From positions 992,001 through 1,056,000 of the forward strand of contig NZ_CP059732.1 of assembly GCF_014117325.1 (NCBI RefSeq): DNA of 64,000 nt, in the 5' to 3' direction. Numbering within the stretch: position 1 is the stretch's first letter; every line of letters begins with the position of its first letter. This document shows, piece by piece, positions 10,401 through 31,463 of this stretch. The notes under the pieces were generated by a model. The model ran no database searches. It saw only the letters and a list, made by a program, of their open reading frames with translations, and was not told the DNA's origin. Source of the DNA: Spirosoma foliorum. GTDB lineage: Bacteria > Bacteroidota > Bacteroidia > Cytophagales > Spirosomataceae. Both the position numbers and the translations under genes were made by a program.

Positions 10401-13400
10401 GGTGTGGCCTCGGCCAACATCAGCAACCTGGCTGGTCCTCAGGTATCGGGTGTGCCTACTAATGTGAAGTGCTATGGTACCCAGACGGGTAGCGTGGTGC
10501 TCACGGTAACGGGCGGCACCCCACCGATTGGGTATGTGTGGAGCAATGGCTCGACGAGTAAGGATCTAACGGGCGTTGGTGCTGGAGTGTACACGGTGAC
10601 GGCACGGGATGCCAATGGTTGTCTGGCGGTGCAGAGTTTCACCATCACCCAGCCCACGGAGATCGCGGCCGTGTTCCAGCCCACGCAACCGACCTGTTCG
10701 AGTCTGAGCGGGGGTAGTGTGAGTCTGGTGAGCATCAGTGGTGGTACGGCTCCGTATAGTTATACCTGGAGCACGGGCAGCACAGCGGCCAGTCTCAACA
10801 ACCTGAGTGGTGGCACGTATACCTTGACCATCAAGGACGCCAATGGTTGTGTGGCTTCGCCAGTAGCGATTCTGAACACGCCTACTAATTGCAGTACGCC
10901 TATCTTCGATCTGGCCTTGACCAAGAAATTGGCTAATGGACAGCCTGCCAATGTGGTAGCGGGTGGTCAGGTAACCTTCACGGTGACGGTTTACAACCAG
11001 GGCAACATTGATGCAACCAACGTTCAGGTGACGGACTACATCCCAACTGGACTGACGCTGAACGATGCGAACTGGACGGCTAGTAACGGCAAGGCTACGC
11101 TTACTAGTGTGATTGCCAATCTGGCCGCTGGTCAGAGCACGAGCCGTAACATTACCTTCACGGTAGGGTTGGGCGTAACGGGTAGTCTGACCAACAATGC
11201 TGAGATCAGCGGTGCGAGCAACGCACAGAACTTGCCAGACGTGGATTCGAGTCCTGACAACGATCCGACCAACGATGGTACGCCGATCAATGACGATACG
11301 TCGGGCGATCATAAGCACAACCCATCACAGGATGAGGATGATAGTGATATCGAAGTGATTAATGTGAATCCGGCTCCTGTCTTCGATCTGGCCTTGACCA
11401 AGAAATTGGCCCCTGGACAGTCTACGAATGTAGTGGCGGGTAGCAACGTAACCTTTGCGGTGACGGTGATCAACCAGGGTACTGTGGACGCGACAGCTGT
11501 TCAGGTGACGGATTACATCCCAGCGGGATTAGCGCTGAACGATGCCAACTGGACAGCCAGCAATGGTCAGGCGACACTCAACACGCCGATCACGAATCTG
11601 ACTGCCGGGCAGAGCACCACGCGCACCATCACCTTTGTGGTAAGCTCGAGTGTAACCGGTAGCCTGACCAACGGAGCCGAGATCAGCAGTGCGAGCAACG
11701 GGCAGAACCTGCCGGATAAAGATTCCGATCCGGATAACAATCCGGGGAACGATGGTACGCCGATCAATGACGATACGTCAGGGGATCACAAGCATAATCC
11801 ATCGCAGGATGAAGATGATAGTGATATCGAGGTGATTACGGTGACGCCCGTTCAGCCAACCTGTGAGAAACCGGTGCTGACCGTAGGCAATCCCGTTTGC
11901 AATCCAGCGAATGGTACCTATAGCGTAAGCATTTACAGCAGCACAGGCAATGTGCTGGCTAGTGCGGGTACGGTGAGTGGTTCGAGTGTGATCGACATTC
12001 CGGTGGGTACACCAGTGAGTGTGACGGCCAGCAATGGTATTGGCTGTAACACCGTATCGATGGTGGAAAGTCCAGCCTCGTGTCCGATAACACCAACCTG
12101 TACGCAGCCTAAACTGACCACCGGTCAGCCAATCTGTTCGGGTAACGGTACGTATTCGGTGAGCTACTCGACTGACCGGGGCGTTGTGAGTGTCAATGCG
12201 GGGACTATTTCGGGGAATACCATCGTCGGTATCCCGGTAGGAACCCAGCTCACGATCACGGCAACCGACGGAACCTGTATGACTCGGGTCAATGTGAGTA
12301 GCCCAGCAAACTGCACAAACCCCTGTGAAAATCCAGGTATCAGCCTGAGCGGTCCGATCTGTGACGACAAGGGCACGAATACCTACTACCTGTACTACAC
12401 CCTCCTCAACGGAGCAACGGTGAAAGTTAGTCAGGGTGTGGCCAGTAACGGGCTGATTACGGGTGTGCCTTCGGGTGCGCCACTAAGCCTAACGGTAAGC
12501 AGAGCGGGTTGTGCCGACAAGGTGGTGACTATTCCAGGGGTTGTTTGTGGACCAAATCCGGCTCCATCCTTGGATCTGACCAAACAGGTCAACAAGACTC
12601 GAGCTGGCCTGGGCGAAGTGGTGACTTACACCCTTACGCTGACCAATAGAGGCACCGGATCGGCAACGAATGTAGACGTTCAGGAATCGATGAGTGCGGG
12701 TCTGGTACTTATCCCAGGGTCTGTTTCGACTACGGCGGGTAGCTACGCGGCTACCAGTCCGGTCGGTATCTGGACGGTGCCAAATCTGGCTGCTGGAGCA
12801 ACGACAACCCTGACCTTCTCGGCCAGCATTACGCAGGTGGGTGTGGTTTACAACACCGCAGCGATACCCGGCGATACGGCCACCGTTTGTACAACGGTTC
12901 CAGTGAAAGTTTGTCAGGGAGCGCCAATCCAGGTGGTTGTGTCGGCTCCGAAGGGCTATAGCAGCTATCAATGGTATCGCAATGGTAGTGCGATTTCAGG
13001 TGCCACCAGCTATACCTATACGGCGACTCAACTGGGTGAATACACCATCCAGGTCAACGGGTCGCAATGCCCCAATGGTGCTTGCTGCCCTATTGTGGTG
13101 GAACAGGAAGCAGGCGTAACCTTTACGTTGGCCAGTCAGGCTCCAACCTGTAACGGTAGTCAGCCATTGGCGAACGGTACGGTGAGCATTAATGGACTGG
13201 CGATTGCCAACACGGCTTATCGGTATGCTCTCGCGCTGGGTACCAGCTTTACGACGACCAACCCGACGGTTCAGTCAGTGCCTGCCAATGGCGTACTGGC
13301 CTCGAATCTGGTGGGTGGTCAGACGTACACCATCCGTGTATTCAACGGAGCGGGTTGCTGGCAGGATCAGACCGTGACGATTGGGGTAGCCAATTGTGGC

Positions 13401-16400
13401 TGCTCGGTCGAACCACCGGTCGTAACCTGTGCGATTACCGAAATCTGCAAAGGCGGTTCCACCATGCTCAGCACACGTGGCTGTGAATCGGGTACGATTC
13501 GCTGGTCGGATGGCCATTCGGGTGCGACCATCGTCGCGACACCAACCGTCACGACGACCTATACCGCCAGTTGCGTGATCGGTAGTTGCGTGAGCCCCGC
13601 TTCGAATGCGATTACCGTTACGGTACTGGATGTCAAAACACCGACAATCAGTGCGAGTGCGGATAATGTATGTCCCGGAACGTCGGTCACGCTGACGGCT
13701 GCGGGCTGCGAAGGGGGCGTGATCCAATGGTCGGAGAAAACCCAGACAGGTGCGTCGATTGTCGTAACGCCTTATGGCAAAACAACCTATACGGCACAGT
13801 GTCGCCTGGGTACTTGCCTAAGCAATCCGGCGCTGGTGACCATCAATGTGAATACGGAGTTGCCAACGCCAACTGTAACCTGTAGCACAACCATCGTTTG
13901 CCCAGGCGAAACGGTGACGCTGACGGCGGAAAATTGCGTGGGTACGCCAATCTGGAATAGCACAACGGCAACCACCAGCAGCATCGTCGTTACGCCAACG
14001 CTTGGCAGCAACAGCTACTGGGTGTTCTGTAAGAATGGGGCCTGCACCAGCAAATCCTCGAATATCTACACGATTCAGGTTGTAGCGCCAGTTATTCCGA
14101 CGATAACAGCTTCGGCCGATACGATTTGCACCGGTGGCTCCGTCGTTCTGACGGCTAGCGGCTGCAACGGAACGGTCTTCTGGTCGACAGGTCAGACGGG
14201 AGCTAGCATCACGGTGGCTCCGACGGCCAATACCAGTTACTATGCTCAGTGTAAGTTCCGCAGCTGCCTCAGCGATCAGTCGAGTGCGATTGCCATTGCG
14301 GTGGTAAATCCACAGACGCCGATTGTACGAGTGAATAAAACCCTCGTCTGTAGTGGAGAACCCGTCTCGCTGACGGCAACGGGTTGCAACGGTACTGTAC
14401 AATGGCATGGGGTGAATTTGGTTGGCTTAACCATCACCATCTATCCAACAGCAACGGCTGAGTACTATGCGACCTGTAAGCTGGGCGCTTGCGAAAGTAG
14501 TGCGTCGACCACCGTCCGGGTGACGGTGAACAGCTCACCAGCTACCGCGCCGACGGTGGTTGCCTCAACGAGCCTCGTCTGCAACAGTGGCCTGGTATCG
14601 TTAAGTGCCACAGGTTGCAATGGCACGGTACAATGGTCGGATGGTCAGACCGGATCGGTTATTACCGTAACGGCTACCCCAACGAATCGGGAGTTCTATG
14701 CCTTGTGTGTGCCTACTAGTGGTACGGCCTGTGGTAGTGCCAAATCCAATGTGGTGACCATTACGGTGCCACAAATGGCAACGCCAAGCATCGTCGCTAG
14801 CCGTACAGCGGTTTGCAGCGGTGAGCAGGTGACCTTGACGGCCACGGGTTGCGCAGGAGGAACCATTCAATGGCATGGTGTCAATCAGTCCGGTACCAGC
14901 ATTTCGGTGACGCCGGTATCAACGAGCGAATACTATGCGACCTGTACGATTACGGGTTGTGAAAGTGCTCCATCTACTAAAGTAACAGTGGTTGTGAACG
15001 CGCCGGTTACAGCTCCGGTGGTTACTGCATCAAGCCTGACCGTTTGCTCGGGTAGTGTTGTTTCAATGACCGCAACGGGTTGTAATGGCACCGTGAACTG
15101 GTCGGATGGTCAGACCGGAGCGGTCGTTTCGATGACGGCAACGGCAGCTAACCATACCTACTACGCGATCTGTCAGACGGGAACGCTCTGCCCTTCGCCA
15201 CAGTCCAATGTGGTGTCGATTAACCTGGCACCTACTGCGGCACCAACCATTACCGCCAGTCGTAACTCGATTTGCAGTGGTGAGAAGGTAACGCTGACGG
15301 CTACGGGCTGTGCAGGTACGGTAATCTGGCATGGCATCAACCGCACGGGAGCAAGCATCGATATGTATCCGACCTCGACAACCGACTACTACGCAACGTG
15401 CCAGGTTGGTACCTGTGAGAGCGGGGCTTCCAACACGGTAAGCATAGTTGTCAATACGGGTACAGGCATCAGTCCGGTAGTAACCGCTTCAACGCAACAG
15501 GTTTGCATCAGTGGTGTCGTCACGCTGACGGCCACGGGCTGTACGGGCGGCACGGTGATTTGGTCAGATGGTCAGCAGGGAGCGATTGTTTCCATGACCG
15601 CTACGGATGCGAACCACGAGTTCTATGCCCTCTGTAAAGATGCTGGTCAGTGTGGTACGGGTAAGTCGAACGTGATTACGGTGACGGTAACGACCCTGCC
15701 CACGCCAACGGCTGTCTGCAGTACCAGCGCCATCTGTGTTGGCGAAGACGTAACGCTTACCGCGCAAAATTGCCTGGGTACCCCTCACTGGAGTACAGGT
15801 GAAACCACGGCCAGCATTATCGTGAAACCAACGGTAACGACGGGCTACACGGTATACTGCACGATGAACGGATGCACGAGCCCAACCTCGAGTTCGTATG
15901 TGATTACGGTCGTACCAGTTACTGCACCTACGATTACGGCTTCGGCTACGGTCGTGACCGCTGGTGGGTCAGTGACGCTGACCGCCAGTGGTTGTCCGGG
16001 TACGGTGATCTGGTCGGCTAACGACATCCACGGAAATAACACCGGTAGCTCGCTAGTGGTCCGCCCCGAAGGGACGCAGACCTACTCGGCTCAGTGTAAA
16101 TACCGGACCTGTCTGAGCGACCCATCCAATACGATCACGATCAATCCAGGAAATTGCCTGGTTAACGCAGGTGGGCTGACGCCGGTGAACGGTAACGTAT
16201 GTGCCGCGGGTAGCACCACCGCGCTTGTAGCGGCAACGCTGAGTGGTGGTCTGGTTCAACCCAATGGCTATTCGGTCGTCTACCTGTTGGCGAAAGATGG
16301 TGTGATTCAGCAAAGCAGCACAACCCCTCAGTTCAGTGTACCATCGGCTAGTGCTCACTACTCGATTCATACGCTGGTCTATAACGGGGCATCGGGTGAT

Positions 16401-19400
16401 GCAAATTACTTCGCGCTGTCATCGATCAACCTGGGTGTTACCCGGACGACGGATGTGCTGCAACTGATTAGTCATAGCTGTGCCGCCTTCGATGCAACGG
16501 GTGCTAAAGTGAACGTAGGCGTCGTTGACGCACCGTCACTGTCGAGCAATGCCTCAACAGTTTGTAACGGGGGTACGGTTTCGGTAACCGCCACGGGTTG
16601 CGCAGGTGGAATTGTGAAATGGTCGGATGGTAAAGAAGGAGCTGTCTATCAGACATCAGTGTATACCGAACGCTGGCTAACGGCTATCTGTGAAGTGGAT
16701 GGCTGTCCAAGTGCTCCTTCGGCTACGCTGCACATTACCCTGGGTACACCAGCCGTACCGATTATCGTGAGTACGCCATCGATTTGCGTTGGTGAAACGG
16801 TCTCGCTAACGGCTACGGGTTGCACAAGCGGAAATTACCTCTGGTCGGATGGCAGTACAACGGGAGCAATCCTGACCGTAACGCCAACACAGGATGCTAC
16901 CTACCGCGTGAAGTGCAAGCTGGGCGATTGTGAAGGTGACTGGTCGGCGGCTACGACGGTTCATGTCGGCAAGCCAGCCACACCAACCCTATCACTACAA
17001 GGTACTGGCAGCACAACGGTTTGTTATGGCTCGCCGGTAACGCTGGTGGCAACGGGCTGCACAACGAATGAGCATGTGATTTGGTCCAACAACATGACGG
17101 GCTCGTCCATAACCATTTCGCCTGCCAGTACCGAAACCTACACGGCCTACTGTGCTAGTGCGGCAGGCACCTGCCGGAGCGATGTTTCCAGTGGACTGAC
17201 CATCACGGTATTGGGTAAAGTAGCGGTACCGACGGTAGTCGATAAAACCAATACGTGTCCAATCACAACGGTGGATCTATCGACCGCGATGTCGAGTCAG
17301 CCAACGACAACGGGTGGGTTGTTCGAATACTATACGGATGCCGCACTGACCAACAAGGTAGCAAACCCTGCTGCCGTTGGTGCCGGTACCTACTACGTGA
17401 TCGAGCGGACCAGTACTGGTTGCGTGAGTCTGCCAGCGGTGATTCATGTGCAGATTACTACCTGCACGGAACCAACACCTTGCGATGGGGTTAACCCAGC
17501 CACGGCCAATGCCGGTGATGATGCGAGTGTTTGTTCAACGGCAAGTTATCAACTACACGGTGCAATGGGGGGCGGTGGCAACACCGCTCACTGGACCACC
17601 AGTGGCAACGGAAGCTTCGATAACCCATACTCGCTCAATGCGATCTATACCGCTAGTGGGGATGATGTACAGGCTGGTCAGGTAACGCTGACGCTGACGG
17701 TAAGCACTACGAACGTGAACTGCCCGGTAGCTACGGATCAACTGGTGCTGACGCTGAATGGTGTGAAGAGTACCCCAGTGATTACGGTCGCTGGGGGCAC
17801 CCAACTCTGCGCCGGTGATTCGGTGATCCTGAAAGCCCCTGCCGGATATGCAGGCTATAACTGGAGCAACGGAGCCACTACGCGAACCATCGTGGTGAAA
17901 CAGAGTGGTGTCTATAGTGTACAGGTAATGAACGACAAAGGATGCACCTCGGTGAAATCGGCTGATGTAACGGTGAAAATAGCCGAGCCTGTGTTGCCAC
18001 CGCTGGTGACGAACCTGCGGAATACCTGTCCGTCGAAAATCGTCGATCTGACGCAGGCGCTGTCCACCACCACAGTCGGTAGCACCTATACGTATCGAAT
18101 CTGCGAGTGTAACTCATCCAACATCGTCATCCGGCCGGATTCGGTGTGTGAAGGTACATACTGGATTGTGGAGCGAACGGCTCAGGGTTGCGTGAGCAAA
18201 CCAGCGAAAGTGGTCGTGAAAGTCTTCAACTGCGCCACCGATACGCTGGCAACGGATGTTAGTATTGCTAAAACGGTGAACCAGACTACAGTGAATGGCT
18301 CGCCAGTCACCTATACGCTGACGGTTAGCAATGCGGGTCCACATACGGCTTACAACGTCGATGTACGCGATGTACTGCCAAGTGGTCTGCAACTGTTGCC
18401 ATCGGGTGGCTACACCTTCGCGAATGGGATGATTACCAAACGGATCGATAGTCTGAAAGCGGGCGCGTCTGCTCAGATCGTGTTCAGCGCCCGGATTGTG
18501 ACGAAAGGAGTGGATATTATCAACAGAGCCGAGATTACCTATCTGGACAATGTTGATCCGAACGGGGCCAACAACAGTTCGAGCGTGACGGTACGCGATA
18601 CAACCAGTACGCCTGTGTCGCAGACCGGTACACCGGGGCTGGGTGTAGCTCTGGCGGTCGTGAAGGTTGAACCGCAGCCTGATAACTCGTACAACGTGAC
18701 TTATAAAGCGACGTTGAAGAACGTGGGCTCGGTGGATCTGACCGCGGTCAGTCTGCTGGATAGTCTGAACGGGGTGTTCGCATCGCCTGCTTCCTATAGC
18801 GTTGTTGGTTCGCCAGTAACCGGATCGGGCAGCACGCTGGTGGCTAATGCAGGCTTCGATGGGAATACGCAACCGAATATTCTCGGCAGTGCCAGCACTT
18901 TAGCGGCTGGTGTTCAGGATACCGTCGTGTTCGTGGTGAACGTGAAGGCCAATGGTAACAGCGGTCCGTTCTATTCCTCGGCAACAGCGAAGGGAAATAC
19001 CCTCGACGGTAGCCAGACGGTGAAGGATGTCTCCAACAATGGATTCGATCCGACGCCAGAAGGCTCTGTGTCAACCGCGGTTCGCTTCGATATGCCCAAA
19101 GGCTTACTTGGGGTAGCTAAATCGGTGGGTGCGCCAACGCTGGTGTCAGCTGGGATCTACGACATTCCGTACACGATTGCACTGAATAACATGGGTAGTG
19201 TAGACCTCAAGAAGGTTCAGGTCGTGGATAACCTCTCCGCAGCTTTTGGTCACGGTGCGCTCATTGTTAGCAATCAGATCTCGGTTTCAGGGGTTGGTAC
19301 GGTAACGGTCAATCCGAGTTACTCAGGTCAGGGCCTGATCACCAATATGTTGGTCGATACGGCCAGTACACTGGCTGCGGGTGCCAAAGCCACGCTGAGC

Positions 19401-20390
19401 TTCACGGTTCGGGTGGATGTGCGGAATGCCGACGCGTTGACTTTCTACAACACGGCGCTGGCTTCGGCCCTGACGCCAACCGATGACGTAGTCGAAGATG
19501 TGTCGACCGCTGGTACCAACGATGACCCCGACAATGATCTGGACCCACGTAACAACAGCCAGACAACGCCAATCGTGTTGAACAGCGTTTCGTCTGATTC
19601 GTACATTGGAGTATCCCTGGCGGTTCGCGATACAGTTCGTCAATCGGATGGTAGCTACAACGTGACTTACCAGGTTGTGGTGAAAGCCTACGGTCCTGAT
19701 TCGCTGAAGAATGTGAGCGTAAGCGATACCCTGTCTAAAGTCTTCAACAACCAGACAGGATCGACCTACCGAGTAGTAAGTGCACCGATTATCACCTCAA
19801 CGGGTAGTGCACTGAAACTGAATCCGAACTTCAACGGCGACGCTGACCCTGTGCTTGTTCTGGGCGATAATACCAGTACGCTGGCTGCGGGTAAAGTCGA
19901 CACGATTCAGATGGTAGTCAATGTCGCTTCGAGTGGTAGCACGACCACCTTCCTGAACTCAGCTTATGCGCAGGCAGTGGCTAAATCGGGTACGGTGAGT
20001 GATGTGTCGACGAATGGGTTGAATCCTGACCTCAATGGCAATGGCAACCCAACCGATTCGAACGAACGCGAAGCGACCACGTTGACTCTGCCACCGACCT
20101 ATGGGTCGATCTTCATCCCCGAAGGCTTCTCGCCAAACGGCGATGGCACCAACGATCGGTTCGTGATTCGGGGAACCGCTGGTCTGATGGTTAGCCTGCA
20201 GGTGTACAACCGTTGGGGCAATCTGGTCTACCAAAGTGAGGATTACCAAAACGATTGGGATGGTAAACCCAACACCGGTGTGCTGATCAATTCGGCTGAT
20301 TCGAATGGGGTTCCCGACGGTACCTACTACTACATAATCCATCTGAGTGATGGCCGCAAGTTTGTTCGATACATGACAATTAACCGCTAA
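4404..20390 (+). CDS. Giant T9SS-secreted adhesin with SprB repeats, DUF11 domains and gliding-type C-terminal domain
   Basis: A 5,328-residue protein, probably displayed on the cell surface. A hydrophobic stretch at residues 30-50 serves as export signal; Met10 (4431) is an alternative start. Order: three Ig-like Cys repeats (about 122-350); a Cys-rich triplet starting CEKP (353-588); SprB-like repeats (588-983); Cys triplet and SprB set again (983-1614); DUF11 (1616-1768); third SprB set (1771-2163); two DUF11 domains (2168-2483); Cys triplet (2484-2718); DUF11 (about 2721-2833); about fifteen 80-residue Ig-like repeats of the type VCSGxxVTLTATGC (about 3005-4270); linker domains; DUF11-like domains (about 4610-5230). 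Residues 5235-5328 form a type B (CHU/gliding-associated) sorting domain with FSPNGDGTNDRF and VYNRWGNLVY. SprB of Flavobacterium is the best-known relative in architecture, where it drives gliding; adhesion or gliding here is inferred. A PorP/SprF gene starts 6 bp after the stop. Confidence 0.93.
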   Translation: MEYTKTQSSMKKYLPFTCSLWQNVCSPPKWVVRILLPLLVLSFVTVGVCKAMTEPLKPVTLPGGEGRRSTLSAHSFPKRLNLFARRDENLASMGELGGQNRLERLANKQANPVVEANLDTPCVPVSYTLCGAKTSFTLTAGSGYANVQWYKDGAVIAGATTTDYVATVAGMYSYSATDVTTSCSTSLCCPISIESCAPCVPVSYTICGARTSFTLTAGSGYTNVQWYKDGTAIAGATTTDYVATVAGMYSYSATDATTSCSTSLCCPISIESCAPCVPASYTLCGTKTSFTLTTGEGYTSVQWYKDGVAIPGATAIDYVATVAGMYSYSAVDATGCSGTLCCPISITSCPQVCEKPILTVGNPVCNGSGFYSVSVYSSTNNIVASAGTVSGLSIINIPVGTPVSVSASNGVGCLNVATVDSPTGCNASGPNGCTPPQLTVGQPLCMGTTYTVSYRLTGSGGVSSNVGVVNASAHRIEQIPVGTNVVVTASGSGTCVTRVTVVSPTSCANPCENPAITLSGPECSNGATSYVVNYTVNPGTTVLASAGSVSNGLISGIPSGIPLSVTVTTVNGCSPMVVVVPPASCTVCAPLGLNTGTTLALCGQSNGIATVVVNAGSGVGPYSYQWTNASGSVVSSSSIATGLSAGMYTVTVTDSKGCVGQKQVSISSTNAPAIVAQATTTNCGLANGSASVQVTSGSGSYTYQWTTSTGVVVGSSASVGNLPAGTYTVNVVDANGCNSMTSVVVGNSTPLAIVATAQNAVCGQANGSITAQVSGGSSGYTYQWRTASGVVATSQNLTNAAPGSYSVVVTDATGCTAVATANISNLAGPQVSGVPTHVKCYGTQTGSVVLTVSGGTPPIGYVWSNGSTSKDLTGVGAGVYTVTARDANGCLAVQSFTITQPTEIAAVFQPTQPTCSSLSGGGVSLVSISGGTAPYSYTWSTGSTAASLNNLSGGTYTLTIKDANGCVASPVAVLITPTGCNPQVCEKPILTVGNPVCNGSGFYSVSVYSSTTNIVASAGTVSGLSVINIPVGTPVSVSASNGVGCVNVASVASPVDCNASGPNGCTPPQLTVGQPLCMGTTYTVSYRLTGSGGVSSNVGVVNASAHRIEQIPVGTNVVVTASGSGTCVTRVTVVSPTSCANPCENPAITLSGPECSNGATSYVVNYTVNPGTTVLASAGSVSNGLISGIPSGIPLSVTVTTVNGCSPMVVVVPPASCTVCAPLGLNTGTTLALCGQSNGIATVVVNAGSGVGPYSYQWTNAQGSVVSSSSIATGLSAGMYTVTVTDSKGCVGQKQVSISSTSAPAILAQASPTSCGQPNGSASVQVSNGSGSYTYQWTNSSGVLMGTSASLAGLPAGTYMVSVQDGSGCSSTTSVVVGSSSPVNVVATAQNAVCGQATGSVSVQVSGGSGSYSYQWRNAAGVVVATSQNLVNVAPGSYNVTVSDGRGCVGVASANISNLAGPQVSGVPTNVKCYGTQTGSVVLTVTGGTPPIGYVWSNGSTSKDLTGVGAGVYTVTARDANGCLAVQSFTITQPTEIAAVFQPTQPTCSSLSGGSISLVSISGGTAPYSYTWSTGATTASINGLSGGTYTLTIRDGNGCVASPLAVLPTPSNCASLDLALTKKLSSGQSATVVAGGQVTFTVSVINQGGVNATNVQVTDYIPAGLTLNDANWTASNGKATLNTMIASLLAGQTTTRNITFTVSSSFVGSLTNTAEISSASGGTDKDSTPDDNPDNDGTPVNDDTSGDHKNNPSQDEDDSDIEVITVTPLCTALGLNTGTTLALCGQSNGIATVVVNVGSGVGPYSYQWTNASGSVVSSSSIATGLSAGMYTVTVSDSKGCVGQKQVSISSTSAPAILAQASPTSCGQPNGSASVQVSNGSGSYTYQWTNSSGVLMGTSASLAGLPAGTYMVSVQDGSGCSSTTSVVVGSSSPVNVVATAQNAVCGQATGSVSVQVSGGSGSYSYQWRNAAGVVVATSQNLVNVAPGSYNVTVSDGRGCVGVASANISNLAGPQVSGVPTNVKCYGTQTGSVVLTVTGGTPPIGYVWSNGSTSKDLTGVGAGVYTVTARDANGCLAVQSFTITQPTEIAAVFQPTQPTCSSLSGGSVSLVSISGGTAPYSYTWSTGSTAASLNNLSGGTYTLTIKDANGCVASPVAILNTPTNCSTPIFDLALTKKLANGQPANVVAGGQVTFTVTVYNQGNIDATNVQVTDYIPTGLTLNDANWTASNGKATLTSVIANLAAGQSTSRNITFTVGLGVTGSLTNNAEISGASNAQNLPDVDSSPDNDPTNDGTPINDDTSGDHKHNPSQDEDDSDIEVINVNPAPVFDLALTKKLAPGQSTNVVAGSNVTFAVTVINQGTVDATAVQVTDYIPAGLALNDANWTASNGQATLNTPITNLTAGQSTTRTITFVVSSSVTGSLTNGAEISSASNGQNLPDKDSDPDNNPGNDGTPINDDTSGDHKHNPSQDEDDSDIEVITVTPVQPTCEKPVLTVGNPVCNPANGTYSVSIYSSTGNVLASAGTVSGSSVIDIPVGTPVSVTASNGIGCNTVSMVESPASCPITPTCTQPKLTTGQPICSGNGTYSVSYSTDRGVVSVNAGTISGNTIVGIPVGTQLTITATDGTCMTRVNVSSPANCTNPCENPGISLSGPICDDKGTNTYYLYYTLLNGATVKVSQGVASNGLITGVPSGAPLSLTVSRAGCADKVVTIPGVVCGPNPAPSLDLTKQVNKTRAGLGEVVTYTLTLTNRGTGSATNVDVQESMSAGLVLIPGSVSTTAGSYAATSPVGIWTVPNLAAGATTTLTFSASITQVGVVYNTAAIPGDTATVCTTVPVKVCQGAPIQVVVSAPKGYSSYQWYRNGSAISGATSYTYTATQLGEYTIQVNGSQCPNGACCPIVVEQEAGVTFTLASQAPTCNGSQPLANGTVSINGLAIANTAYRYALALGTSFTTTNPTVQSVPANGVLASNLVGGQTYTIRVFNGAGCWQDQTVTIGVANCGCSVEPPVVTCAITEICKGGSTMLSTRGCESGTIRWSDGHSGATIVATPTVTTTYTASCVIGSCVSPASNAITVTVLDVKTPTISASADNVCPGTSVTLTAAGCEGGVIQWSEKTQTGASIVVTPYGKTTYTAQCRLGTCLSNPALVTINVNTELPTPTVTCSTTIVCPGETVTLTAENCVGTPIWNSTTATTSSIVVTPTLGSNSYWVFCKNGACTSKSSNIYTIQVVAPVIPTITASADTICTGGSVVLTASGCNGTVFWSTGQTGASITVAPTANTSYYAQCKFRSCLSDQSSAIAIAVVNPQTPIVRVNKTLVCSGEPVSLTATGCNGTVQWHGVNLVGLTITIYPTATAEYYATCKLGACESSASTTVRVTVNSSPATAPTVVASTSLVCNSGLVSLSATGCNGTVQWSDGQTGSVITVTATPTNREFYALCVPTSGTACGSAKSNVVTITVPQMATPSIVASRTAVCSGEQVTLTATGCAGGTIQWHGVNQSGTSISVTPVSTSEYYATCTITGCESAPSTKVTVVVNAPVTAPVVTASSLTVCSGSVVSMTATGCNGTVNWSDGQTGAVVSMTATAANHTYYAICQTGTLCPSPQSNVVSINLAPTAAPTITASRNSICSGEKVTLTATGCAGTVIWHGINRTGASIDMYPTSTTDYYATCQVGTCESGASNTVSIVVNTGTGISPVVTASTQQVCISGVVTLTATGCTGGTVIWSDGQQGAIVSMTATDANHEFYALCKDAGQCGTGKSNVITVTVTTLPTPTAVCSTSAICVGEDVTLTAQNCLGTPHWSTGETTASIIVKPTVTTGYTVYCTMNGCTSPTSSSYVITVVPVTAPTITASATVVTAGGSVTLTASGCPGTVIWSANDIHGNNTGSSLVVRPEGTQTYSAQCKYRTCLSDPSNTITINPGNCLVNAGGLTPVNGNVCAAGSTTALVAATLSGGLVQPNGYSVVYLLAKDGVIQQSSTTPQFSVPSASAHYSIHTLVYNGASGDANYFALSSINLGVTRTTDVLQLISHSCAAFDATGAKVNVGVVDAPSLSSNASTVCNGGTVSVTATGCAGGIVKWSDGKEGAVYQTSVYTERWLTAICEVDGCPSAPSATLHITLGTPAVPIIVSTPSICVGETVSLTATGCTSGNYLWSDGSTTGAILTVTPTQDATYRVKCKLGDCEGDWSAATTVHVGKPATPTLSLQGTGSTTVCYGSPVTLVATGCTTNEHVIWSNNMTGSSITISPASTETYTAYCASAAGTCRSDVSSGLTITVLGKVAVPTVVDKTNTCPITTVDLSTAMSSQPTTTGGLFEYYTDAALTNKVANPAAVGAGTYYVIERTSTGCVSLPAVIHVQITTCTEPTPCDGVNPATANAGDDASVCSTASYQLHGAMGGGGNTAHWTTSGNGSFDNPYSLNAIYTASGDDVQAGQVTLTLTVSTTNVNCPVATDQLVLTLNGVKSTPVITVAGGTQLCAGDSVILKAPAGYAGYNWSNGATTRTIVVKQSGVYSVQVMNDKGCTSVKSADVTVKIAEPVLPPLVTNLRNTCPSKIVDLTQALSTTTVGSTYTYRICECNSSNIVIRPDSVCEGTYWIVERTAQGCVSKPAKVVVKVFNCATDTLATDVSIAKTVNQTTVNGSPVTYTLTVSNAGPHTAYNVDVRDVLPSGLQLLPSGGYTFANGMITKRIDSLKAGASAQIVFSARIVTKGVDIINRAEITYLDNVDPNGANNSSSVTVRDTTSTPVSQTGTPGLGVALAVVKVEPQPDNSYNVTYKATLKNVGSVDLTAVSLLDSLNGVFASPASYSVVGSPVTGSGSTLVANAGFDGNTQPNILGSASTLAAGVQDTVVFVVNVKANGNSGPFYSSATAKGNTLDGSQTVKDVSNNGFDPTPEGSVSTAVRFDMPKGLLGVAKSVGAPTLVSAGIYDIPYTIALNNMGSVDLKKVQVVDNLSAAFGHGALIVSNQISVSGVGTVTVNPSYSGQGLITNMLVDTASTLAAGAKATLSFTVRVDVRNADALTFYNTALASALTPTDDVVEDVSTAGTNDDPDNDLDPRNNSQTTPIVLNSVSSDSYIGVSLAVRDTVRQSDGSYNVTYQVVVKAYGPDSLKNVSVSDTLSKVFNNQTGSTYRVVSAPIITSTGSALKLNPNFNGDADPVLVLGDNTSTLAAGKVDTIQMVVNVASSGSTTTFLNSAYAQAVAKSGTVSDVSTNGLNPDLNGNGNPTDSNEREATTLTLPPTYGSIFIPEGFSPNGDGTNDRFVIRGTAGLMVSLQVYNRWGNLVYQSEDYQNDWDGKPNTGVLINSADSNGVPDGTYYYIIHLSDGRKFVRYMTINR
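5826..6112 (+). repeat. Exact 287-bp intragenic repeat, copy 1
   Basis: Identical, by direct reading, to 7722-8008 (offset 1896 bp = 632 codons). It is the conserved core of a longer near-identical block covering the Cys-rich triplet and the start of the SprB set (about 5460-6400 against 7356-8296). Confidence 0.85.
7722..8008 (+). repeat. Exact 287-bp intragenic repeat, copy 2
   Basis: Identical to 5826-6112, in the same reading frame. Confidence 0.85.
8268..8878 (+). repeat. Exact 611-bp intragenic repeat, copy 1 (SprB repeat set)
   Basis: Identical base for base to 9918-10528 (offset 1650 bp = 550 codons). The near-identical block is longer, about 8080-9110 against 9730-10760. Identity at synonymous positions points to a recent duplication or ongoing gene conversion. 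Confidence 0.9.
9918..10528 (+). repeat. Exact 611-bp intragenic repeat, copy 2 (SprB repeat set)
   Basis: Identical to 8268-8878. The two copies are separated by a region that includes the first DUF11 domain and its Asp-rich linker, so deletion between them would remove that domain in frame. Confidence 0.9.
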
Positions 20391-20395
20391 TTCGG

Positions 20396-21373
20396 ATGGC
20401 AAACCAGTTTGTAACTAAACTTTGGGCCGCGGGAGTGGCGCTGCTGATGCTCAGCATCAGCAGCCGCCCCGTGCAGGCTCAGCAGGACAAAATGTTCTCG
20501 CAGTACATGTTCAACATGATGGCTTTAAATCCGGCCTATGCTGGTAGCCGGGATGTGCTGAGTATGTCGGCCCTGTACCGCAATCAATGGACGGGCGTAG
20601 CCGGGGCTCCCCAGACGGCCACCTTTACCGCCGATATGCCTCTGAAGCAGGAGCGGGTAGGCGTTGGATTGCAGCTCTATAGCGACAAGGCTGGGGTGAT
20701 CCAGGAAGCCGGTGGCTTTGCCTCATATTCGTTTCGGATTAAGGTCGGGGCCAAAACAACCCTGGCGTTAGGTCTTCAGGCAGGTGCGTCGAGCTATCAG
20801 GCCAATCTGGCGGAGGTGAAAACCTCCCCCGATGGTCAGGTGGACCCCGCTTTTGCCAGCAACATCTCCAAGATTCTGCCCAACTTCGGCACGGGGATTT
20901 ACCTGAGCAACGACCGGGCCTATGTAGGCCTATCATTGCCCCGGCTGATCAAGAATCGACTGAGTGAGTACAACGTCGGCGATTTGCGATCGGTACAGGC
21001 GCGTCATGCCTATTTGGCAGCTGGTTTTGTGGTGGGTCTTAGCCCCGTGGTCAAGATGAAACCCTCGCTGCTGGTGAAGTATGCCGAAGGTGCCCCGCTC
21101 GGTTTTGATGGCAACGTCAACTTCTGGTTTGCCGATCGGATCGCCATTGGCGCATCGATTCGCCGGAATCAGTTCTCAACTTGGTCGACCTTTACGACGG
21201 ATGCCCTGGTGGGTATGCTGGAAGTCCAGCTAACCGATCAGTTCCGGTTTGGGTATGCCTATGATCGAACGATGAACGGCTTACGCGATGTGGCTCCCAG
21301 TTCGCACGAGATTATGATTCGGTATGAGTTTGGCTTCGGTAAGAATCGGATTCTGACGCCCAGGTATTTTTAA
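20396..21373 (+). CDS. PorP/SprF family type IX secretion membrane protein
   Basis: A 325-residue protein with a signal peptide ending near residue 29 (PVQAQ) and the family hallmark right after it: QDKMFSQYMFNMMALNPAYA, followed by SRDVLSMSALYRNQW. These proteins form outer-membrane barrels; in Flavobacterium SprF is needed to put the adhesin SprB on the surface, and PorP-like proteins accompany type B CTD substrates. The start lies 6 bp after the stop of the giant adhesin, so the two are probably one transcription unit and this protein is the dedicated partner of that adhesin. The end of the protein (IMIRYEFGFGKNRILTPRYF) fits a terminal beta strand. Length is typical for the family. Confidence 0.93.
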   Translation: MANQFVTKLWAAGVALLMLSISSRPVQAQQDKMFSQYMFNMMALNPAYAGSRDVLSMSALYRNQWTGVAGAPQTATFTADMPLKQERVGVGLQLYSDKAGVIQEAGGFASYSFRIKVGAKTTLALGLQAGASSYQANLAEVKTSPDGQVDPAFASNISKILPNFGTGIYLSNDRAYVGLSLPRLIKNRLSEYNVGDLRSVQARHAYLAAGFVVGLSPVVKMKPSLLVKYAEGAPLGFDGNVNFWFADRIAIGASIRRNQFSTWSTFTTDALVGMLEVQLTDQFRFGYAYDRTMNGLRDVAPSSHEIMIRYEFGFGKNRILTPRYF

Positions 21374-24110: not shown

Positions 24111-25266
24111 TAGGGTGATTGCACGAAAAGCTAAGTTAGCCATCTTTGACAGATGGACGTAGCCGAATTGTTTTTTGAGATTGATGATCCCCGCCAGGAA
24201 GGAAAGTGTTTTCACCAGCTAACCGATATTCTAATGATCGTACTTTGTGGATACTTAGCTGATTGTGAGGGATTTGAAGAGGTTTATGATTATGCTTGTG
24301 ATAAACAGGAGGTGTTCCGTGAGTTTTTGGAACTACCCTGCGGGATTCCTTCGCACGATACCCTAAATCGGGTCTTTCGCCGACTTGAGCCCACCCAGCT
24401 GGAGACTTTGTTAACCAATTGGGGCAAAGAAATTGTTGACCTGCTGACCCAAAAACAGCTTATCATCGACGGTAAACAACTGCGGGGAACGGTAGAGGCT
24501 GGCCACAAACAAGCCACCGTTCAGATTGTCAGTGTCTGGGCCGAGAAAGAGCGGTTGTGTCTGGCTCAGAGCCAGATAGCTACTAAAACCAACGAGATCA
24601 AAGCGATTCCTGATTTGTTAAAATCGATTGACATCGCCAGTAGCGTGGTTAGTATGGATGCCATTGGATGCCAAAAAACGATTGCCAAACTCATTATCGA
24701 TCAGCGGGCAGACTATCTCATTGGCTTAAAGGCCAATCAGGACGGCTTATATGAACAAGTGGTCGATTGGTTCGAGCGAACAAAGCCTTCCTTACAAGCC
24801 GATATAAGCCGGGATTTGGGCCATGGGCGAGCTGAAAAGCGGGCTGTATTCGTAAGCGAAACACTGGACTTGATTGATGCCGCAGCGGGGTGGGTAGGCT
24901 TAAAAAGCGTCATTTATGTGGAGTCAACTCGTTGGATCAATGACAAAGAACAGCGCAGTACACGCTACTATATCAGCTCACTAAGAGGCTATTCAGCCGC
25001 TCAGATGAGTTGCTACATTCGTCGGCACTGGAGTATTGAGAATGAGCAGCATTGGCACCTTGATGTCACCTTTGATGAAGATGGGTGCCAGGTCCGGAAA
25101 GACCATGCTCCGCGTAATTTGAGTACGGTTCGTAAGTTGGCCTTAGGCTTAATTAGTCGTGACCCGGCCAAGATGAGTTTGAAGCGTAAGCGAAAGAAAG
25201 CTGCCCGAGACGATGCTTATCTAATGACTCTATTGAGCCAACTTAACGTTTGATGCAATTACCCTG
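24111..25266 (+). mobile_element. Complete ISAs1-family insertion sequence (1156 bp)
   Basis: The left end begins TAGGGTGATTGCA and the right end, read inward on the other strand, begins CAGGGTAATTGCA. The terminal inverted repeats match at about 23 of 31 positions. The element carries one transposase gene (24153-25253) that fills almost all of it. It is bounded by a 9-bp direct repeat TAAATTATA (24102-24110 and 25267-25275), within the 8-10 bp duplication known for this family. Both ends, the gene and the duplication are intact, so the insertion is probably fairly recent and the element could still be active. Confidence 0.85.
24153..25253 (+). CDS. ISAs1-family transposase (DDE type)
   Basis: A 366-residue transposase. 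The N-terminal part (about 5-90, DDPRQEGKCFHQLTDIL) is the associated domain of ISAs1/H-repeat transposases, and the rest is the DDE catalytic domain. The likely acidic triad is Asp106 (LIIDGKQLRGT), Asp169 (VVSMDAIGCQ) and Glu296 (SIENEQHWHLD). The length is normal for the family and no frameshift or internal stop is seen. The start at 24153 lies just inside the left inverted repeat, and the stop is 13 bp from the right end. Confidence 0.95.
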   Translation: MDVAELFFEIDDPRQEGKCFHQLTDILMIVLCGYLADCEGFEEVYDYACDKQEVFREFLELPCGIPSHDTLNRVFRRLEPTQLETLLTNWGKEIVDLLTQKQLIIDGKQLRGTVEAGHKQATVQIVSVWAEKERLCLAQSQIATKTNEIKAIPDLLKSIDIASSVVSMDAIGCQKTIAKLIIDQRADYLIGLKANQDGLYEQVVDWFERTKPSLQADISRDLGHGRAEKRAVFVSETLDLIDAAAGWVGLKSVIYVESTRWINDKEQRSTRYYISSLRGYSAAQMSCYIRRHWSIENEQHWHLDVTFDEDGCQVRKDHAPRNLSTVRKLALGLISRDPAKMSLKRKRKKAARDDAYLMTLLSQLNV

Positions 25267-26314: not shown

Positions 26315-26851
26315 TTAAAGTAGCTTTTTATACTGTTCCAGTAGTTTCCGTCGACTACGAAACAACCGCATCTTTACGGCACTTAGACTAATCCATTGTT
26401 GCCGAGCCAATGTAGCCTGATCGATACCCTGCTGATAATGCGTATAAAGCAGGTATTGATCTGCTTCAGGCAGCGTCTGTATTAGCTGCTCCATTAAGGT
26501 ATAATCTATTTTCTCATCGGCTTCTTCCACCAGGGAATCTGTTAGTGACTCGTCCAGAGCACAGCTACGATGACGGCGTTTGGCGCGTATTTGATCCAGG
26601 CAATAATTGTGGGTGATGGCGTATAGCCAGGTGGCTAGTGAAGAACTGTTTTGAAACGTGTCTAGTTTTTGAAAAACTTTAATAAAAATGTCCTGCGTAT
26701 AGTCTTGTGCAGTTGCTGGATTGTTAGTCATAGCCAGACACTTTCGATAGACTTTTGAGACATGTTTCCTATACAGCAGGTCAAACGAATTGGTTGTGGA
26801 GCATGACTCACTGAATTCGGGGAGTCGATTAGAGGAGGTTGATTGTGTCAT
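26315..26851 (-). CDS. ECF-type RNA polymerase sigma factor
   Basis: A 178-residue sigma-70 family protein with only regions 2 and 4. Region 2 (about 22-92) contains YRKHVSKVYRKCLAM and the -10 recognition helix part TWLYAITHNYCLDQIRAKRR. Region 4 (about 120-178) contains LPEADQYLLYTHYQQGID and a helix-turn-helix (ATLARQQWISLSAVKMRLFR). No FecR-type anti-sigma gene is next to it. The neighbour upstream is a long noncoding region. Length is normal for ECF factors; the regulon is unknown. Confidence 0.92.
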   Translation of the reverse strand: MTQSTSSNRLPEFSESCSTTNSFDLLYRKHVSKVYRKCLAMTNNPATAQDYTQDIFIKVFQKLDTFQNSSSLATWLYAITHNYCLDQIRAKRRHRSCALDESLTDSLVEEADEKIDYTLMEQLIQTLPEADQYLLYTHYQQGIDQATLARQQWISLSAVKMRLFRSRRKLLEQYKKLL

Positions 26852-28421: not shown

Positions 28422-28630
28422 GAAAGCTATGTGCCGAACTTCTTTCTGGATTTATTGTAAAAATATTTAGCATTTAACTTGTTGAAAGTTAGGAAGTTAT
28501 AATGTATTGTTTGGCTGACTGAAAAAAAAGTTTAAAATTTTGTAAGCGTTTTGTAGCGTTTTATCGCTTTCTCTCGACTTCCTCATTGACCGATAGCTAT
28601 GGTGTCACTCACGTTTAACTGTTTAAGTCA

Positions 28631-29122
28631 ATGAAAAAGATAGTTTTCTTAGGAAGTCTGTTATCCATGCTGGCTGGTTGCCATCAAGATATTCAACCTA
28701 CCAGCAGTAGCATCCCGACTGCATCCGGTAAAGTGGCCGACGGCTCGGCAATCACGGGAACTCCCAAAATTGCACAGGCAATGATCGATTCAATGGGACA
28801 TTCGATAGGGCAATTGCCCACTGGTTTTTCTGTTACAGCGGTAAAGCTTGATATTGATAAAATTGTTACCATGACCGCGAGGAGCGACAGTATGGGCGTG
28901 GGAAAAGCTAGTGCTGTGGTATATACTGATACAGTCTGGAAAGAAACCAGTACCAAATTGGCTACCACAACGGGACTCAATCAACCCTTTAAGCTAGCCG
29001 ATGTACCTTCGGGGACATACCGGGTGGTTCTCATAGGTACCGGCAGCCAGTTTGCGAAAACTATTGACAAAGTCAAGGTTTTAGAGAACACCACGACCAA
29101 TCTGGGAATAATTGATATTTAA
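28631..29122 (+). CDS. Predicted lipoprotein
   Basis: A 163-residue protein with a lipoprotein signal (LSMLAGC, Cys17), so it should be lipid-anchored in the envelope. The C-terminal part (KLADVPSGTYRVVLIGTG and onward to the end) looks like a carboxypeptidase-regulatory/beta-sandwich type domain. Family and role are not recognised. A strong hairpin follows directly, so it appears to be a single-gene unit. Confidence 0.75.
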   Translation: MKKIVFLGSLLSMLAGCHQDIQPTSSSIPTASGKVADGSAITGTPKIAQAMIDSMGHSIGQLPTGFSVTAVKLDIDKIVTMTARSDSMGVGKASAVVYTDTVWKETSTKLATTTGLNQPFKLADVPSGTYRVVLIGTGSQFAKTIDKVKVLENTTTNLGIIDI

Positions 29123-29132
29123 TAGCTTCTGA

Positions 29133-29178
29133 CCATACACCACCCATAGTCTCGTAACGAACTATGGGTGGTGTATGG
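29133..29178 (+). terminator. Perfect 18-bp hairpin after the lipoprotein gene
   Basis: The arm CCATACACCACCCATAGT (29133-29150) pairs with 29161-29178 without mismatch; the loop is 10 nt. There is no strong T tract. It is probably a terminator or 3' stabilising structure, possibly bidirectional. Confidence 0.6.
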
Positions 29179-29315
29179 CTATTGCCTTGTTAATCAAGGA
29201 TTCTATTGGCCTTCCTCCGCGCTCAATCAATAATTCATCAAAACGTATTAGTACAGTCTGATCAATGGTCGATCATCTTGTCTTAGCCTAAAAAATCAAG
29301 ACTACCCAAGCACAT

Positions 29316-31463
29316 ATGGTAGCTGAATTACTGGATTGTACGCCACAGGAACAGGAATGGCTGGAAGGATGCCGGAGAGCTTCTCCGAAAGCACAGAAAA
29401 AAGTATTTGAGCGCTATTATGGCTTGGTATACGGGACCTGTATACGTTACCTTTCTTCGAAAGAGATGGCACAGGAAGCACTCAATGACTGTTTTTTAAA
29501 GCTGTTTTACCAACTTGAGTCCGCATGTCGTTACCCGGAATATTTTCGTCGATGGCTACGCCGATTAGCCGTTTATACTGCTGTTGATGCCTATCGAAAA
29601 GAAAAACAGTACTTAACCGACATCTCAATCGATGATCAGGCGATTGAGATAGGCATCCCGGAAACCCTATCCGATAACCTACAGGCTGAGCAGATTATAG
29701 CCTTGCTGGCTCAACTGCCCGATTTGTGGCGATTGACGTTCAATCTGTACGAAATTGAAGGCTACTCGCACGAAGAAATTGCTCATTTACTGGCTATTCC
29801 GATGAGTAGCTCCCGAGTTTATCTGACACGTGCCAAGCAGCGCTTAAGAGAATTGCTTCGAGAGGAAGGTTCTGTCCGTACGGCTATGCCCATCTATTAT
29901 GTTCCAACTGCTACCCATTCAGGTGACCCAGACTGGCGTCATTTTCGGGAAAGATTAGATAGTTATGAACCTATGCCTGATGGAGACGCCTGGCAACGGT
30001 TCGAACGGGTACAACAACGGCAGCATCAGCACAGGCGGTGGCAAACGGCTAAACTAATCGTACTGGTAGCGGTTGGGGTGGTCTGTGAAAAATCGCAGGC
30101 TCCCGGTCATTTCTGGCCTAAATCACAAGTCCGTGTGACGAGCTCAACCACACGTTTGCCATCTAGTTCAGCCGGAGTTAATTCACCCACAACAACCTAT
30201 TATAAGCAAGGGGCTAAAACGGACCAAACGGCTGTGGCTATGCACGATCAGCCTGGAGAAGAGCATCATCCGGTGGATTCGAAAGAAAATAGTCTGTCGT
30301 CGATTTCGAATCAAACGCCGTCTTTCGATCTGGAGAAATCCTCTAGAGAAAGACCAAAAGACTCAATAGCGTCAACAAATGGAACGACTTCCAGTGTAAA
30401 CAGACGTTTGCCCGAATCGTTGGCTGATCCTGAGGCTACAGCTTTCATCGAAAAGAGAATAGCTCGTAAGGTCACGGCTACTGGTCGAAATACAAGGCCC
30501 AATAGGGCTAAAGCACCTGTCGTCTCTTCGACTGAATCGGGTGGTCGATTTAGACAAATGAACAATCGAGGTGCTAGCAAAAATCGATTGACGAAACAAT
30601 CCAGATTTTACGCCAGTAGCTATCAACCAACAGCAACAAATCAGACGGCTATTTACTCATTGGTGTTTACTGAAACAGATGAGAAAGCGGCCGAGCTAAT
30701 TACCATTAATGAACGTTTTCTATTACCTATAAACAAGCTTCTGGCAAAGCCATTTTTGCATAATCGAATCCCTACCAACCAGGCGGTTGTGGTGCGTGCC
30801 TTGTCGATAGAGAGACCCCAATTAGTAGCTTCTAAGCATTCCATAAATGTAGGGGTTCTAGGTGGAGTACAGGCAGTTTATACGCCCACAATGAACCAAT
30901 CTTTTGGTGTAACCGGTGGTATATGGGCCGACTGGCAACTGAATCGAAAACTCGTTATTGAAATGGGACTATCGATAGCTCGTCCGCAACTCATGCAGGC
31001 TGGTAATGGACTGATAACTCAGGATTCGCTAAACCGACGTGAGTTAGTTCAGCAGACGTATCAATGGTGGACTATGACTTTGCCCCTGACTATCCGTTAT
31101 CGTATCGTGGAAACCAAACGCGTGAGTTGGTGGGGAGCCTTAGGAGTATCCTCTGGGCTTACATTTGGCGAAACACAACGAAGCGATTATCGACTTACTT
31201 CCTTTACAAGTAATCCCACAGATTCGAGCCATCATGCCAGCAGTTCCACAGATCAAGTTATCCAGTTCAAGTCGACCAGTGTACTCCTACAACCGTTTCG
31301 TTGGCTAACAGTATCCTCAGGCGTCCGACTCCTGACGGTCGGAAAACAGGAATGGTGGATGGAGCCTTATTTTAGTTACCCAATTGGTGTTACAACTTCC
31401 GAATCGCTTCGTGTCAGCATGGCCGGTATTCGATTGCGGCTGCGTTTGCTGAAACTGAATTGA
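29316..31463 (+). CDS. ECF sigma factor fused to a membrane-spanning, outer-membrane-barrel-like protein
   Basis: A 715-residue single reading frame that joins two normally separate proteins. Residues about 28-97 are sigma region 2 (VFERYYGLVYGTCIRYL, then WLRRLAVYTAVDAYRKEK) and 130-188 are region 4 (YEIEGYSHEEIAHLLAIP, YLTRAKQRLRELL). Residues about 200-240 (DWRHFRERLDSYEPMPDGDA) match the start seen in Bacteroidota proteins that often follow an ECF sigma gene. A short hydrophobic segment lies at about 243-258. Residues 265-490 are a long Ser/Thr/basic-rich linker, and about 500-715 alternate like beta strands of an outer-membrane barrel. No homopolymer is visible at the junction (about 29883) that would suggest a simple sequence error. 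If real, the protein would place a sigma factor, a membrane anchor and an envelope domain in one chain. The regulated genes are unknown. Confidence 0.75.
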   Translation: MVAELLDCTPQEQEWLEGCRRASPKAQKKVFERYYGLVYGTCIRYLSSKEMAQEALNDCFLKLFYQLESACRYPEYFRRWLRRLAVYTAVDAYRKEKQYLTDISIDDQAIEIGIPETLSDNLQAEQIIALLAQLPDLWRLTFNLYEIEGYSHEEIAHLLAIPMSSSRVYLTRAKQRLRELLREEGSVRTAMPIYYVPTATHSGDPDWRHFRERLDSYEPMPDGDAWQRFERVQQRQHQHRRWQTAKLIVLVAVGVVCEKSQAPGHFWPKSQVRVTSSTTRLPSSSAGVNSPTTTYYKQGAKTDQTAVAMHDQPGEEHHPVDSKENSLSSISNQTPSFDLEKSSRERPKDSIASTNGTTSSVNRRLPESLADPEATAFIEKRIARKVTATGRNTRPNRAKAPVVSSTESGGRFRQMNNRGASKNRLTKQSRFYASSYQPTATNQTAIYSLVFTETDEKAAELITINERFLLPINKLLAKPFLHNRIPTNQAVVVRALSIERPQLVASKHSINVGVLGGVQAVYTPTMNQSFGVTGGIWADWQLNRKLVIEMGLSIARPQLMQAGNGLITQDSLNRRELVQQTYQWWTMTLPLTIRYRIVETKRVSWWGALGVSSGLTFGETQRSDYRLTSFTSNPTDSSHHASSSTDQVIQFKSTSVLLQPFRWLTVSSGVRLLTVGKQEWWMEPYFSYPIGVTTSESLRVSMAGIRLRLRLLKLN

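Follow-up and report, generated by a model that had tools for sequence, protein, structure and literature searches.

A gene joining a sigma factor to a Dma-like regulator

Positions 29316-31463 of the Spirosoma foliorum window (the whole 64-kb stretch of DNA that was analysed) are occupied by a single forward-strand gene, in which an extracytoplasmic function (ECF) sigma factor is followed by a putative anti-sigma segment, a short hydrophobic segment, a long disordered tether and a C-terminal beta-barrel. This arrangement is that of a sigma factor joined to a protein resembling the dual membrane-spanning anti-sigma (Dma) family. The parts of the gene are as follows:

29316..31463, + strand: whole fused gene, 715 amino acids and stop
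29406..29606, + strand: sigma-70 region 2 (residues 31-97)
29688..29846, + strand: sigma-70 region 4 (residues 125-177)
29934..30020, + strand: anti-sigma segment (residues 207-235), containing W226 and F229
30048..30086, + strand: hydrophobic core (residues 245-257, the last being Cys257), inside a predicted helix at 225-259
30087..30821, + strand: disordered tether (residues 258-502), with a predicted local distance difference test score (pLDDT) below 50
30837..31457, + strand: OmpA/OmpW-like beta-barrel domain (residues 508-714; domain match, predicted structure, VIA-align 2)

An earlier note on this DNA had described one uninterrupted 715-codon frame with ECF regions 2 and 4, a hydrophobic segment, a disordered linker and a beta-rich C terminus. 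The frame indeed contains no internal stop, confirming the fusion, and Pfam matches and the predicted structure agree with the domains as described. Sigma70_r2 and Sigma70_r4_2 both exceed their cut-offs, identifying an ECF sigma factor, and TIGR02937 matches at 61.7 bits (cut-off 42.9), while the Bacteroidota models NF058625 and TIGR02985 match below cut-off. Both the sigma fold and the barrel fold are present in the predicted structure of the fused chain, and a tether of about 245 residues is predicted to be disordered. In the putative anti-sigma segment, W226 and F229 of an AWxxF motif are unchanged in every one of the 32 proteins aligned, fused and separate alike. Solved structures searched by sequence with alignment A2 yielded no match. 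A FecR-type anti-sigma domain defines fusions of the type of IutY, a sigma factor of Pseudomonas putida, and a zinc-finger domain marks those of the ECF52 type; neither domain was found among the Pfam matches of the window protein up to E = 1.

The 2026 paper on Dma2 (PMC13088901) describes the Dma layout as an anti-sigma domain, a membrane helix, a disordered tether and a barrel. Dma1/Das1 and Dma2/Das2 of Bacteroides thetaiotaomicron, which have this layout next to a sigma factor, resemble what is proposed for the window protein, but there the sigma factor and the Dma are two proteins; upon deletion of dma2, das2 and neighbouring genes were among the most raised. Dma3 of the same species carries a sigma domain at its own N-terminus and thus shares the sigma-Dma layout of the window protein, which combines a long disordered tether and a C-terminal beta-barrel with a sigma factor as N-terminal domain. 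As differences, a short membrane segment and a cassette of lipoprotein gene and promoter (both discussed below) are described for the window's group only, Dma3 being compared by its description. The conserved AWxxF segment may be the counterpart of the anti-sigma domain of Dma, with Dma1-3 compared by description. The earlier note had named IutY as a natural precedent, and IutY is a real fused sigma factor, but Dma3 is the nearer case (PMC13088901). According to a 2022 review (PMC8999054; see also PMC5411451), IutY (ECF243) is the only fused sigma factor whose activation by proteolysis, via Prc and RseP, has been characterised; it likewise joins an ECF sigma factor to a membrane-bound anti-sigma part, but its periplasmic anti-sigma domain belongs to another family and works with a separate outer-membrane receptor, and its chain has no barrel. 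The actinobacterial groups ECF48, ECF52 and ECF53, which the review presents as C-terminal transmembrane anti-sigma fusions thought to be activated proteolytically (PMC8999054), differ by their zinc-finger anti-sigma domain and lack of a barrel.

Fused and two-gene relatives

The earlier note had proposed to look for the same fusion in related genomes, and four other full-length fused relatives were found: P0002 from Spirosoma litoris (84% identity), P0007 from the congener G014 (48%), P0005 from Larkinella sp. VNQ87 (35%) and P0004 (35%). Relatives that always keep two separate genes, the outcome which that note had said would refute its proposal, are thus not what is seen. A further protein, P0003 from S. 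migulaei (536 amino acids), is the same fusion truncated inside the barrel, and was left out of alignment A1, the tree and the hydropathy counts. Protein-database searches (8000, 8000 and 806 candidates scored) yielded the window's clade and three other sigma proteins (P0006, P0008 and P0009); they returned no protein named Dma3, which does not imply that fusions are absent elsewhere. A contig scan for wider fusions with two short patterns gave one unrelated locus only.

A search for the Dma half across 222 family genomes gave 30 matches: two fused proteins (in G000, the window's genome, and G014), 27 separate Dma proteins and one match in G240 (L061), which covered query residues 21-96 only and was excluded from the two-gene loci. 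In 27/27 two-gene loci the separate Dma gene lies directly 3' of the sigma gene, bearing out the view that sigma factor and regulator are fused here where relatives have two adjacent genes. The second gene lies in frame +1 relative to the first in 23 pairs, in +2 in two (L048 and L056) and in the same frame in two (L034 and L036), where a single TAA parts sigma and Dma; loss of the stop in such a same-frame pair could give the fusion. One wrong base could likewise join two such genes through an assembly or sequencing error, but the same fused frame is found in S. litoris, G014, Larkinella and P0004, and these independent relatives refute the error in practice, leaving it a negligible chance.

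Sigma domains of the five full-length fusions form one clade in a tree of 61 sigma rows (support 98 in the Shimodaira-Hasegawa-like approximate likelihood-ratio test, SH-aLRT), and the next larger group holds 32 rows, namely the five fusions and the 27 two-gene sigma factors (support 92). This tree was built quickly and carries long-branch warnings on several of its outer rows; it omits L031, a second sigma-like frame in L029 and one in each of L050 and L057 (scores below 100 or unrelated). Since the window fusion groups with the two-gene loci of its own family, it is apparently the second fusion of the Dma3 layout and independent of Dma3, suggesting that the fusing of a sigma factor to an outer-membrane-reaching regulator occurred more than once. 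It also suggests that a fusion can originate next to two-gene loci whose genes may be kept apart by just one stop codon. The kind of protein is already known from Dma3; what is new is that this second fusion is apparently independent and stands next to two-gene loci, along with its shortened membrane segment and the cassette of promoter, lipoprotein, sigma and Dma. The literature collection that was searched contains no paper joining Spirosoma, anti-sigma and ECF, and searches in it on dual membrane-spanning anti-sigma, Dma1/Das1, Dma3 and fused ECF with beta-barrel retrieved no title or abstract on the window's case.

Many sigma matches continue in frame past a TGA or TAA, which hinted at general read-through, but on reading 20 such loci programmed stop read-through as a rule was found to be unsupported. 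Among 13 TGA loci (L062-L074), the true Dma frame is +1 in the ten with a downstream frame listed, and L064, L067 and L071, which have none listed, share the same junction sequence. In the remaining seven loci, the downstream frame is in phase after one stop in four (L075, L076, L077 and L080) and not in three. These four are other sigma/membrane-protein pairs with the second frame in phase, in which the one-stop arrangement recurs.

Between the window and G014, the 183 sigma codons show 40, 25 and 96 differences at codon positions 1, 2 and 3, and the 213 barrel codons show 69, 54 and 144, with 65/213 synonymous; the predominance of third-position differences indicates purifying selection on both end domains. 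Barrel identity is 52% with G014 and 89% with S. litoris. The junction between the halves bears on whether the gene yields two products, an internal start adding a free Dma to the fused chain so that the system would act partly in trans. A methionine, Met191, does lie at the junction in the window protein, P0002 and P0007, and P0004 and P0005 have one directly before the anti-sigma segment (MSSTNW), near the start of separate Dmas. However, the position of this methionine is unlike between the Spirosoma fusions and the others, and the sigma factor would remain covalently inhibited, making such a second product unlikely.

The lipoprotein gene and its promoter-like element

Two features upstream of the fused gene, overlooked in the earlier note as part of the cassette, are conserved with it:

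28552..28580, + strand: promoter-like element TGTAGC-N17-CGACTT (TGTAGCGTTTT-N12-CGAC), conserved with G014
28631..29122, + strand: small predicted lipoprotein gene, 163 amino acids, probable target, with a homologue at the matching place in G014

The upstream regions of the window and G014 share one strongly conserved block, TGTAGCGTTTT-N12-CGACTT. The element pattern was first defined from these two regions alone and then tested on the two-gene loci, for 20/27 of which upstream DNA was taken. All 20 have a small gene with a lipoprotein-like start 5' of the sigma gene (frames chosen by eye), and all 20 have the element within 62 bases of the lipoprotein start with 0-3 mismatches of 15 (none in two loci, one in one, two in 13 and three in four), giving 22/22 loci when the two defining ones are counted. 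The spacer is always 12 bases in the 20 loci, although 11-13 were allowed, and in 200 shuffles per region at most 1.5% gave an equally good match. A refined pattern, chosen after the 20-locus test, matched within 800 bases with 0-2 mismatches in 19/20 two-gene loci vs 4-6 mismatches in 28/28 control pairs from other sigma subfamilies; the exception, L119 (5 mismatches), has a site that falls shortly beyond the stretch scanned. In the window the exact element is found at this one position, which is also its only occurrence in the whole G000 genome; G014 likewise has a single copy, and four other congeners have none. A window scan with a longer pattern and two mismatches gave six matches (4.07 expected). 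The element is the probable -35/-10 pair of this sigma subfamily, and its recurrence in two-gene loci and absence from controls argue that the fused sigma factor probably still reads the ancestral promoter.

A homologue of the window's lipoprotein occurs in 2/222 family genomes, the two carrying the fusion (G000 and G014), at the same place. The lipoproteins of the 20 two-gene loci fall by eye into 18 of one type, without a Pfam match in the four scanned, and two META-domain proteins (L119 and L123); the window's lipoprotein is of a further type, distinct from both. Since the lipoprotein types differ at a kept slot, the place and the element are conserved while the product changes. In loci L114-L133, at least two unrelated lipoprotein types stand in one slot behind the same promoter-like element. 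In the window, 3 kb hold the sigma factor together with the site it probably reads and the gene it probably controls, which makes the cassette a compact system for studying how Dma proteins signal from the outer membrane to RNA polymerase.

Membrane segment and proposed mode of action

The hydrophobic segment of the fusions is shorter than that of the two-gene relatives, a difference the earlier note had passed over. Over the best 19-residue stretch, mean hydropathy is 1.20-1.52 in the five fusions (1.28 in the window protein, whose hydrophobic core spans 13 residues) vs 1.52-2.63 (mean 2.07) in the 27 separate Dmas, and over 13 residues the ranges overlap (2.16-2.69 in fusions vs 2.04-3.16 in separate Dmas). 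The basic stretch before the core fits an inside N-terminus under the positive-inside rule. Cys257 ends the core in 5/5 fusions; lipoprotein-type cleavage at this residue was considered and fits poorly, the preceding residue being V, I or L in 5/5 fusions where such cleavage usually has G, A or S before the cysteine.

Given the domain order, the conservation of the fusion, the clade beside two-gene loci and the conserved promoter-like element, we consider it fairly probable (about 0.6) that in this gene an ECF sigma factor has naturally become joined to its cognate Dma-like anti-sigma factor, and that the product is autoinhibited, kept at the inner membrane with a link to the outer one, and released when an envelope signal arrives. 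The sigma part would stay cytoplasmic, masked in cis by the AWxxF segment, and the short hydrophobic helix would keep it at the inner membrane. Because the regulator half has the Dma layout, the chain should reach the outer membrane, with the tether spanning the periplasm and the barrel located in the outer membrane; both the masking in cis and the link to an outer-membrane barrel are drawn by analogy with Dma. Retention of the sigma factor at the inner membrane until an envelope signal arrives, as the earlier note proposed, is still the most likely mode, whereas the Dma layout and the reach to the outer membrane had escaped it. If the outer membrane or the assembly of the barrel is altered, the tether may be cut first and the membrane segment next, the latter by a site-2 protease, release thus being probably proteolytic; the freed sigma factor would then transcribe the gene for the lipoprotein from TGTAGCGTTTT-N12-CGAC. 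Two matches to M50 site-2 proteases exceed the cut-off in the window's genome. Covalent linkage would fix the sigma:inhibitor ratio at 1:1 and make each sigma factor the single-use messenger of one barrel, so that a fused cassette would be free of changes in the sigma:anti-sigma ratio.

Several observations weigh against this interpretation. All five fusions fall below 1.6, the usual 19-residue hydropathy threshold for a membrane segment, and with so short a hydrophobic segment stable membrane anchoring is not assured. The tether (127, 120 and 147 differences at codon positions 1, 2 and 3 between the window and G014) and the junction at residues 184-215 (13, 9 and 13) show little purifying selection. 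When up to two mismatches are allowed, the element is no more frequent than a reversed control (29 vs 31 in G000 and 21 vs 33 in G014), and a wider regulon was rejected on this count. The fused gene's own 193 upstream bases hold no copy of the element (6 mismatches), and a strong hairpin at 29133-29178 (-36.7 kcal/mol for 29118-29190, z -8.1) separates the fused gene from the lipoprotein stop. No T run follows this hairpin and the terminator scan has no listing there; the hairpin might reduce read-through into the fused gene by transcripts that start at the lipoprotein promoter.

The short segment of all five fusions, together with the nearly unconstrained tether and the truncation of P0003 within the barrel, would also suit a decaying regulator whose membrane segment is eroding, leaving the sigma factor free-running and the barrel a remnant. 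Against such decay stand the mainly third-position differences and the identities of the barrel given above, the retention of W226, F229 and Cys257, and the retained upstream element, and we regard it as very unlikely. Alternatively, the sigma factor might be active while tethered, as a membrane-bound transcription factor, the signal altering its masking and not its linkage. No cleavage site is evident in the sequence, and masking in cis by the neighbouring segment would suffice for on/off control, but the genome has site-2 proteases, and IutY is freed by proteolysis (PMC8999054, PMC5411451); activity in the tethered state is accordingly improbable. A more speculative idea, which we hold to be decidedly unlikely, is that the fused proteins have had their membrane segment weakened to a marginal, signal-peptide-like helix of 13 residues ending in the invariant cysteine, so that the chain would be kept in the inner membrane mainly by its outer-membrane-fixed far end, and failed barrel assembly, lost tether tension or a cut near the cysteine would drop the sigma half into the cytoplasm. 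If true, one polypeptide would serve as a direct mechanical or assembly sensor from the outer membrane to transcription.

Elsewhere in the window, a second, separate sigma-like gene (178 amino acids, named by eye) lies on the reverse strand at 26315-26851, about 2.5 kb upstream of the fusion, and a 366-codon frame at 24153-25253 resembles by eye an insertion-sequence transposase. Further upstream, a repetitive frame of 5,328 codons (4404-20390) is followed by a frame at 20396-21373 that looks by eye like the PorP/SprF type, and the pair probably encodes a giant secreted adhesin with a partner protein.
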